Positions 4,970 through 9,603 of a DNA stretch of 64,000 bases are shown in pieces (position 1 is the stretch's first letter; the number at the start of each line of letters is the position of its first letter). The notes below the pieces were generated by a model. It made no database searches, was not told the DNA's origin, and saw only the letters and a program-made list of their open reading frames with translations. The DNA is taken from positions 1,392,865 to 1,456,864 of the forward strand of contig NZ_CP139303.1 of NCBI RefSeq assembly GCF_034092465.1, written 5' to 3'. The translations under genes were made by a program, and so were the position numbers. This DNA is from Prochlorococcus sp. MIT 1223 (GTDB lineage: Bacteria; Cyanobacteriota; Cyanobacteriia; PCC-6307; Cyanobiaceae).

Positions 4970-7276
4970 TTAGCCCAGCCCTATTAGGCGAGCGTGGAAG
5001 AATGCCCAAGTCGTGGCTATGCCCCCAACTAGGAAGTGTGTAACTCCTACGGCACGTCCTTGAGTAATTGATAGTGCCCTGGGTTGAATAGTAGGAGCTA
5101 ATTTCAACTTATTATGAGCCCAAATAATAGACTCGAACAATTCTTGCCAGTAGCCTCTGCCGCTAAATAAGAACATTAGACTGAAGGCCCAAATAAAGTG
5201 AGCTCCTAAGAACATCAAGCCATACATGCTTATAGGTTGACCATAGCTGGTCAGAACTTGTGATGCTTGCGCCCAAAGGAAATCCCTTAGCCAACCATTA
5301 ATTGTTATTGAGCTTTGAGCAAAATTACCACCAGTTAGTCCCCAGACATCACTTTGCATTTTCCAAGAAAAATGGAAGATAACAACTGAAAGCCCGTTAT
5401 ACATCCAGAATAATCCAAGGAAAACATGATCCCAAGAGGAAACCTGACATGTTCCGCCTCTACCAGGGCCATCACATGGGAATCTGAATCCTAATAAAGC
5501 TTTATCTGGAATCAAGCGAGAGCTTCTTGAGAATAAAACACCTTTAAGAAGTATTAGCAAAGTTACGTGGATAGTGAATGCATGAATGTGATGAATCATG
5601 AAATCAGCTGTTCCTAAGGGAATAGGAGCAATAGCGATTTTCTCTCCTATTTGAATAACACTTCCATTGAAAACTTCGCTAACAGCGCCATTCTGTAATT
5701 GAACTTGTGTACCAGCGAGAGTGGTTGATCCTGATGCTGAAGCATGAATGTTTTGTATCCATTGAGCAAATACAGGTTGAAGTTGAATTGCCTTATCACT
5801 AAACATGTCTTGAGGACGTCCTAAAGCCCTCATTACGTCGTTGTGAATATATAGCCCGAAGCTGTGAAAGCCAAGGAACATACAAGCCCAATTTAAATGG
5901 CTAATTAATGCGTCACGAGCTTTGAGGATTCTGTCTAGAACGTTATCTATATGTTTTGCAGGGTCATAATCTCTAATCATTGCAATTGCTGAATGAGCAG
6001 CAGCGCCACATATAAATAATCCACCTATCCACATGTGATGAGTGAACAGTCCTAAAACAGTTGGATAATCAGTAGCAAGATAAGGATATGGAGGCATCGC
6101 ATACATATGATGCGAGATGATAATGCTTAAAGAGCCAATCATTGCAAGGTTTATTCCAAGCTGTGCATGCCAGCTATTTGCTAAAAAGTCATAAATTCCT
6201 TCATGACCTTTAGGTGCTGGGAAAAGGATTGGATCTCCATTGTGGCTATCAAGTATTTCTTTTAGAGAGCTTCCTATTCCGTAACTTGTTCTATATAAAT
6301 GTCCACCGATTACTGCGACTACTCCAAAAGCCAAATGGTGGTGAGAGATATCAGTCATCCATAAGCTTCCAGTCACAGGACTTAAACCACCTTTAAAAGT
6401 TAGGAAGTCAGTAAAAGCCCACCAATTAAGATTAAAGAAATTTTCTACTGTTCTCCCGGCTAATCCTGGAAAGATTTGACTGACTAATGCTGGGTTACAG
6501 AGCTCATGAGGTAAAGGTAAGTCTGAAACTGAGGCAATAGGAGTTCCATTTAAAATCAAAGGATTTCCAGCATCAATAGCATCTAATAGTGCAGCAGTAG
6601 GAGCGCCTATATGAATGCAATGACCAGCCCAAGCGATTGAGCCTAGTCCTACAAGTCCTGCAATATGGTGATTGAGCATTGATTCAAGATTCCTGAACCA
6701 ATCAAGCTTTGGAGCTGCTTTGTGATAGTGATAAATCCCACCATGCAGCATTATTGCTGCCATCAAAAGAGCTCCAATGGCTAAAGCCATCAATTCTGTT
6801 TCGTTGGTGACACCCCACCCTCTCCACATTTGGAAAATTCCTGAAGTGATTTGAATGCCGTGGTAATTACCACCTAAATCAGCATTCAACATCTCTTGAC
6901 CAACAATTGGCCAAACGACTTGTGCGCCAGGTTTTACATGGGTTGGGTCAGCCAGCCAGCCAGAATAATTTGAAAAGCGTGCGCCATGGAAAAACGCGGC
7001 ACTCATCCAAATAAAAATGACTGCAAGGTGCCCGAAATGGGCAGAGAAAATCTTTCTACTGGTTTCCTCTAAATCTCCGATATGGGTATCGAAGTCATGT
7101 GCATCGGCGTGGAGATTCCAAATCCAGGTTGTGGTTTTGGGGCCTTTAGAAAGCTTGCTAGACCAAAATCCAGGTTTGTCTAATTTTCCAAAGTCAATTG
7201 GCTTTGGATCAGACTCGACTGGTTGATCGAGCATGGGCTTACTTTTTTCGCCACGTTCAGGTGGGCTAATGGTCAT
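4970..7276 (-). CDS. psaA: Photosystem I P700 apoprotein A1 (PsaA)
   Basis: Partner of PsaB in the photosystem I heterodimer, 768 aa with the start chosen here. The frame stays open upstream to 7405, but the ATG at 7276 ([16 protein letters not shown]) matches the usual PsaA start; the extra 43 codons upstream look like leader. [12 protein letters not shown] around residues 586-597 gives the other two FX cysteines. A segment near residues 530-570 ([20 protein letters not shown]) is the kind of lumenal loop that varies among picocyanobacteria. Cotranscribed with psaB; the upstream gap of about 470 bases should hold its promoters. Confidence 0.98.
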
Positions 7277-7748
7277 CGAGTGATTCCTTGAGGAATGTGA
7301 TCGAGGTGGGTTCTCACCACTAATAGATCCGTAAGTGCAAGCATAGAGCCGAGAAGCAGTTACTACGGCAGCATGTAACAAATGTTCTATACCCTGATTC
7401 CTCATGGGAATCGTTATGATCGCTAGATTTTCTAAAATAACGAGAATTTAGCGATTAAATCCCAAAGGGATTTATAGGGAAGGGAAATAGATCAATATTT
7501 GTTTTTTTATCATAAACAACTTCGTATCTCTATTATGAAAATAAAAACAATCCTGTAAAGCTTGTTCTTATTGATAGCTTGCTCTTGTAAAGAATTCTTC
7601 TTCCTAATTGAAAAAAAGCTTTCAAGGCCTTTTGATCTTTTCAAACAGATGCTGATTAGAAGAAAAAGATGCTACTAATCATTGTTTGGTTTTAATCATT
7701 CTCTACAAGCATTTTTTTTATATAGAGCTAAATTTAATTAATTTTTGA
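7277..7748. promoter_or_regulatory. psaA upstream region with two inverted repeats
   Basis: A gene-free stretch of about 470 bases between divergent psaA and the cobalamin fusion gene. Two inverted repeats stand out: ATCGCTA (7419-7425) with TAGCGAT (7449-7455), and TAAATCCC/GGGATTTA around an AAA loop (7456-7474). The two nearly abut and lie about 143-198 bases upstream of the psaA ATG. They could be leader structure or a binding site for a dimeric regulator. I did not find a convincing HLR1 (RpaB) repeat. The rest is A/T-rich with no visible gene. Confidence 0.45.
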
Positions 7749-9603
7749 ATGTTTAGCTTCTCTGAAAAAAAATCACTCTTCTTCTTCTGAATTCAGTATT
7801 GCAATAGGTCTTGCTCCCGGAGCTTTATCAGCGCTTCGAAGACTTAAGGAACGCAATTATGCTGATAAATTGGCTCTGACCCCTTATGCAGCTTTACATG
7901 TTGATTCATCTTTAGATGGATTCCTCATAAAGCCGGCACGAGAAATAGTCGATTTATATTGGACTAATTGCAGATGTTTATTTTTTATTGGAGCACTTGG
8001 TGCAGCTGTTAGATTAATAGGACCTTTTTTAAAAAGTAAAGATACAGATCCTGCGGTATTGGTTCTTGATGGGAAACTAGAAACAATAGTTCCACTTGTA
8101 GGGGGTCACCTTGGTGGTGCCGATCAAATTGCTAATGAATTATCTGCGGAATTTAATGGGATAGCAGTTTTCACTTCAGATACAAAAACTCAAGAACGAA
8201 TTCCAATAGATAGTTTTGGATTTTATTGGGGCTGGGATCGTTCAGGTAATAGTAAAGATTGGAATCAATTAATGATTAATCAATCCTGTGGTCAGTCAAT
8301 TGCCTTGAATCAGTTCTCAGGTACAACTTTATGGAAAGATTCCGAGTTGTTTACGAAGAACTTTATTCAAAAGAACAATAAGACTTCAGAGAAAATATCA
8401 GATTTGAATGTTGGTTTTAAACTAGGAAAGGGATGTTGGTGGCATACACATAATCTTTGGATAGGGATTGGATGCGAACGTGAAACTAGTGAAAACTTGA
8501 TTAGTAGAGCAATAAATGAGTCTTTTGAGAAAACAGGCTTGGCTAAAAAATCTATAGCAGGAGTATCGTCTATTGATTTGAAAAGAAATGAGCCAGGCAT
8601 CATTTCTTTGATTGATAAAAACTCTTGGCATCCGAGATTTTATGACTCAGAAACTCTTTCCAGAATTTCTGTTCCAAATCCTTCTAAAGTCGTTGCTCAA
8701 GAAATTGGTTCTCCTTCAGTAGCAGAAGCTTCTGCGTTATTAGCGGCAGGTGAAGGAGCAGAGTTGTTACTTGAGAAAAATATTTTCCGGGCAAACTCAG
8801 ATGAACGTGGTGCTGTAACTATTGCAATTGCAAAGTCTGTTAATTCATTTGCTCCACAGAGAGGAGAATTACATCTGATTGGAAGTGGTCCTGGGGATAT
8901 TTCTTTCCTTACGAATGATGCTCGTATGGCTTTGTCAAGATGCGTCATTTGGATTGGATATGGGCTTTATTTAGACCTTTTGGAACCCTTGAGAAGGAAA
9001 GACCAAGTTCGCATAGATAGTTCAATTAATTTTGAGCATGATCGTTGTCAGAAAGCCTTGCAATTAGCTCAACAAGGCATTCATGTAGCTCTGATCTCGT
9101 CAGGGGAAAGCGGAATTTATGGGATGGCAGGCTTGGCGTTAGAACTTTGGTTAGAGCAAAAGAATAATGAGCGTCCATGCTTTGAAGTCCATCCTGGAAT
9201 CAGTGCCTTTCAAGTAGCAGCGGCAAAGAATGGTGCCCCACTTATGAGTGATTTCTGCTCTATAAGTTTAAGTGATCTTTTGACGCCTTGGTCGCAGATC
9301 GAGGCACGTCTGAAATCTGCCGCTGAAGGTGATTTTGTCTTGGCTATTTATAACCCGCGATCTAAAGAACGTAATTGGCAGTTAAAACGTGCAATAGAAA
9401 TTTTACTTGAACATCGTTTACCTAATACTCCTGTGTCTATTTCTCGCCAGCTCTGTAGAACAGGAGAAAAAAATGATCTTTATAGGCTCGATTGTGTACC
9501 GCTTGAAAAAGTCGATATGCTTAGTGTATTGATAGTAGGGAATAGCAAGAGTTTCTTGAAGGACGATCATTTCGTAACTCCTCGAGGTTATTCATTTTGT
9601 TGA
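7749..9603 (+). CDS. cobJ: Cobalamin biosynthesis fusion: CbiG domain plus precorrin-3B C17-methyltransferase (CobJ/CbiH)
   Basis: An N-terminal CbiG part (ring-opening of cobalt-precorrin-5A) is followed, from about codon 335 of the long frame, by a SAM-dependent tetrapyrrole methylase (GELHLIGSGPGD, then GYGLYLDLL and SSGESGIYGM). These act in corrin ring contraction. The open frame with a recognisable start begins at TTG 7870. However, the frame-1 residues before it (IAIGLAPGALSALRRL, from 7801) are clearly CbiG N-terminus. The only ATG nearby (7749) lies in another frame, separated by an A8 run at 7765-7772. Removing one A would give one continuous protein, so the true start or frame is uncertain. 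Confidence 0.85.

Follow-up and report, generated by a model that had tools for sequence, protein, structure and literature searches.

The infC gene of E. coli, which encodes the initiation factor IF3 and is autoregulated, has an AUU start codon, and both AUU and CUG are discriminated against by IF3. The cbiG-cobJ gene analyzed here, in a window of 64 kb (the whole stretch of DNA that was studied), resembles infC as a core gene with a conserved, poor, non-AUG predicted start, and differs from it in the codon, CUG or UUG, and in having no known link to IF3. In E. coli, CUG yields 0.86% of AUG and is thus about a hundred-fold weaker, and it represents 0.024% of the annotated bacterial starts (PMC11497404). 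Like the CUG-initiated genes described in other bacteria (PMC11497404), cbiG-cobJ would have its CUG read by the initiator tRNA; however, those genes are scattered single annotations, whereas in cbiG-cobJ the codon is found at one site in many genera from which ATG is apparently excluded. Freshwater Synechococcus/Cyanobium-like genera and other, distant cyanobacterial families contain the same fusion, with the same domain order and a homologous N-terminus, but show ATG, GTG or TTG starts, as assigned by eye. No earlier report of a CTG start in this gene was found in the part of the literature covered.

On the basis of sequence comparisons, we consider it highly probable that cbiG-cobJ is an intact gene with a clade-wide non-AUG start at CUG 7762-7764, a weak codon which most likely holds its output low. 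The features of the region are the following:

7735-7737, + strand, in-frame TAA stop, eight codons upstream of the CTG and upstream limit of the coding sequence.
7749-7790, + strand, out-of-frame ATG open reading frame of 13 codons, a decoy which is not conserved (the aligned sister sequence is GAAAGT, with no ATG).
7760-7761, + strand, CT di-pyrimidine at positions -2/-1 of the CTG, a context suggested for cyanobacterial starts in a published report (PMC5622118).
7762-7764, + strand, CTG, most likely start codon of cbiG-cobJ: in frame, at a conserved distance to the motif, with NTG-type variation and preceded by a di-pyrimidine.
7762-9603, + strand, cbiG-cobJ fusion coding sequence as corrected, 613 codons and stop, based on the open frame, Pfam domains and PDB matches.
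7765-7772, + strand, A8 run, read directly, which supplies, in frame, codons 2-4 of the corrected gene (AAA AAA AAT) and is not conserved in the sister genome.
7870-7872, + strand, internal TTG, the start for a gene caller restricted to ATG, GTG and TTG, which drops 36 conserved N-terminal codons.

No stop interrupts the CbiG-CobJ frame between 7738 and its terminal stop codon at 9601-9603, and it contains the Pfam domains CbiG_N, CbiG_C and TP_methylase in a single frame, as a CbiG-CobJ fusion does. Its product matches the PDB structures of CobJ (2ZVB) and CbiG (3EEQ), and the gene is real and intact, not broken. Relatives have conserved the IAIGLAPGALSALRRL residues encoded ahead of TTG 7870, which bears out the CbiG-like residues recognized there by the earlier note, and in structure 3EEQ the matched stretch is preceded by 47 residues; therefore, the N-terminus must be encoded upstream of this TTG. 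Between TAA 7735 and TTG 7870, the CbiG frame shows no ATG, GTG or TTG. Direct reading found this TAA, the ATG 7749 one frame off, the A8 run and the TTG where the earlier note had located them; nevertheless, in stating that there was no usable start further upstream, the note missed the in-frame CTG, which precedes all conserved coding sequence, and its frame break at A8 was an interpretation and not an observation, because the frame is already open and the run, read from CTG 7762, encodes Lys-Lys-Asn. The frame of ATG 7749-7751 reads MFSFSEKKSLFFF, passes through A8 and stops at TGA 7788-7790. By itself the A8 run is ordinary: the 64 kb window contains 15 A8/T8 runs, plus one A9.

Matches to the gene were obtained in 143 of 149 relatives and in 352 of 400 family genomes, and 5' ends were fetched from approximately 160 relatives and oriented. 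The main group contains 110 sequences with an anchor motif (such as RIALGLS) from 32 picocyanobacterial genus codes: CTG was assigned as start to 68, TTG to 33 and GTG to one, while the remaining eight show none of these and no ATG serves as start in any of the 110. The start picker gave preference to a CTG with a purine after it and a distance of seven codons or more to the motif, so that a purine at +4 is partly built in; this bias touches neither the -2/-1 bases nor the tests made in genus g34. A CTG is located exactly 11 codons before the (R)IALGLS-like motif in 15 of 32 genera, versus three at most for any of 29 other positions, and with one representative per genus it is found there in 14 of 32, being the most conserved codon column of the stretch. 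Furthermore, in 52 of the 110 genes the stretch from the last in-frame stop to the conserved motif holds no ATG, GTG or TTG, and 44 of these genes contain CTG, versus 20.7 expected from codon usage. By genus, the CTG is present in 15 of 20 versus 6.2 expected, a value reached in 2 of 200,000 simulations with genera treated as independent. The mere presence of CTG by frame is a poor test, as frame +1 is also CTG-rich in the GC-rich genera. The relative G167, taken to be NATL2A, contains only the CTG, and CobJ has been detected by proteomics in NATL2A (PMC3349580).

Codon choice in this column is that of a start. In genus g34, CTG is found in 23 of 23 sequences, while the commonest codon of other conserved leucine columns averages 0.47; genus g52 shows CTG in six of six, and genus g17 shows TTG in 16 and GTG in one. 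Since a leucine codon would drift among its synonyms and a start codon among NTG, and the genera tested show NTG variation and no leucine synonyms, the column behaves as a start. The distance from CTG to motif in g34 ranges between 33 and 63 nt, with six values that are all multiples of three, whereas the spacing to an upstream landmark is 31, 32 or 33 nt (eight, seven and eight sequences, respectively), which puts the landmark in all three frames, and CTGAAC is found in frame 0 only (23 of 23). Frame is thus kept downstream of the CTG but not upstream, which indicates that in g34 the frame constraint, and with it coding, begins at this codon. Eight g34 sequences show an in-frame ATG further upstream, which is part of the landmark found in all three frames. 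Initiation at the CTG is well supported by these data.

A di-pyrimidine at -2/-1 precedes 66 of the 68 CTG starts versus 72 of 272 (26%) CTG codons in gene bodies, and may compensate for the weak codon. Counterpoints to a CTG start are the eight of 110 sequences without CTG, TTG or GTG and the 33 with TTG, mostly without the di-pyrimidine (present in five). Among the ATG open reading frames of the window, 12 of 37 have two pyrimidines at -2/-1, which is not an enrichment, and the context is not a general mark of starts here. Shine-Dalgarno sequences were not enriched at -18 to -4 (12 of 102, versus 22 in a control stretch). The anticodon stem-loop of the initiator tRNA is normal, which speaks against an unusual initiator tRNA that tolerates CUG. 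No cobalamin riboswitch or other Rfam element was found in front of cbiG-cobJ, a promoter scan performed no better than chance and phage records gave no match. As the other tetrapyrrole methylase genes of the genome have ATG, GTG or TTG available, the CTG is a property of cbiG-cobJ.

To account for its frame break, the earlier note had offered transcriptional slippage, a sequencing indel, an inactivating mutation or initiation at a rare codon, and only the last, through the conserved CTG, agrees with the evidence. Deletion of one A does join ATG 7749 to the CbiG frame as a continuous open reading frame, as the note had said, and an ATG one frame off, 16 nt before A8 in a genome of 38.5% GC, would be compatible with RNA polymerase skipping one A in some of the transcripts, making a tunable slippery start. 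However, the sister genome L004, of the same genus, shows GAAAGT for GAATGT and CTGAATAAAGAA for CTGAAAAAAAAT; it has neither the ATG nor a homopolymer, and its frame is likewise open and contains the CTG (CTG AAT AAA GAA). The A8 is also missing in other relatives, no such ATG is conserved elsewhere, and in place of the two conserved overlapping frames of slippage genes there is a short unconserved one. Moreover, the window contains many A8/T8 runs, the frame without slippage already offers a conserved CTG at a conserved distance, and CTG or TTG without ATG is the rule across the 32 genera. Slippage is thus highly improbable, and any frame break is disfavoured because it requires an ATG which is absent from the family. 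Homopolymers are error-prone and a single assembly of the genome was available, so the true sequence could be A7 with ATG 7749 as start; this is very unlikely, since A7 puts the CTG out of frame, while A8 places it exactly 11 codons before the motif in the expected TCT-CTG-A context, and the lack of an ATG, with no homopolymer present, is seen in many complete genomes. A pseudogene or decaying start, which could be suspected from the lack of ATG, GTG and TTG upstream of the conserved N-terminus, is scarcely conceivable in a gene with 613 open codons, all domains and high identity to relatives, whose architecture is found in many genera under purifying selection.

Two further explanations concern initiation itself. 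The CTG could be an ordinary leucine and the start could be ATT 7741, ATT 7798 or TTG 7870, in line with the finding that seven of the eight relatives without CTG, TTG or GTG carry ATT or ATC eight codons before the motif (versus 11 of the other 102), as AUU/AUC starts may exist in the family. An ordinary leucine would have drifted to CTA, CTC, CTT or TTA, which is not seen; in addition, ATT 7798 and TTG 7870 cut into or remove the conserved motif and the spacing upstream is not frame-preserving, so another start is unlikely. Alternatively, ribosomes could reinitiate after a small upstream open reading frame or gene whose stop overlaps the start (C-TGA). An A at +4, giving CTGA, is found in 16 of 20 CTG genera (the position partly favoured by the picker), an out-of-frame ATG open reading frame ends at that TGA in some relatives, and a same-strand gene ends shortly upstream in several genera. 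Against this, the ATG frame shifts within one genus, most genera show no such open reading frame and, in the window, the neighbouring psaA is divergent and the small open reading frame ends beyond the CTG; coupled reinitiation is therefore most improbable. A conserved overlapping open reading frame ending at the C-TGA was likewise rejected, as it is present in some relatives but with an ATG whose frame changes within a genus.

A quick maximum-likelihood tree of 63 proteins grouped the CTG/TTG sequences in one clade (53 rows, support 99), with ATG, GTG or TTG outside it. The early branches inside the clade (g4, g34, g3 and g29) all show CTG, and the simplest reading of the tree would be one CTG origin with about ten later departures. 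The CTG start would go back to a single event in the ancestor shared by marine Synechococcus, Prochlorococcus and one further genus, whose descendants would have either retained it or replaced it, in every case with another non-AUG codon. The ATT/ATC carriers are L054, L058 and L123 (g10), L016 and L116 (g39), L005 (g11) and L019 (g26), which suggests AUU/AUC starts in these relatives. The 5' end of cbiG-cobJ in L116 shows a TTG at the expected place, followed directly by TAA and then by ATC ATC, which would point to an AUC start or else to a start that is damaged in this draft genome.

With initiation at CUG 7762-7764, ribosomes would start with the normal initiator tRNA (fMet) and then read the A8 as Lys-Lys-Asn, and this weak codon, preceded by a di-pyrimidine but by no Shine-Dalgarno sequence, would most likely give a low output of CbiG-CobJ. 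One study reported counter-evidence, a CUG reporter that was undetectable in chloroplasts and E. coli (PMC9845219). The clade-wide CUG start is probably under selection, and we infer that it serves, most likely, to limit the amount of an enzyme in low demand. The gene may also be regulated through initiation; a stronger version, in which the clade is under lasting selection against AUG and cobalamin output is determined by initiation at CUG, UUG, AUU or AUC as a regulated step (for example through growth rate or IF3), appears doubtful. A start codon so much weaker than AUG, yet kept in a core B12 gene of very abundant phototrophs, provides a clean test case for the question of why poor start codons persist in bacteria. 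In marine picocyanobacteria, gene calls of cbiG-cobJ limited to ATG, GTG and TTG lose the conserved N-terminus and mislead frameshift detectors.

The genomic setting upstream of cbiG-cobJ differs among relatives: seven (L007, L014, L017, L020, L027, L049 and L056) show a same-strand gene of approximately 370-470 codons, while g1, g10, g11 and g31 show a divergent psaA, and the CTG is kept in both settings. In the window, a sub-threshold Rfam match to the psaA RNA (29.4 bits versus a cut-off of 50) is located in front of psaA at 7273-7347 on the - strand. The longest open reading frame of psaA (4970-7405, - strand) starts at ATG 7405, which is probably too early, since the conserved N-terminus begins at a later ATG near 7277.
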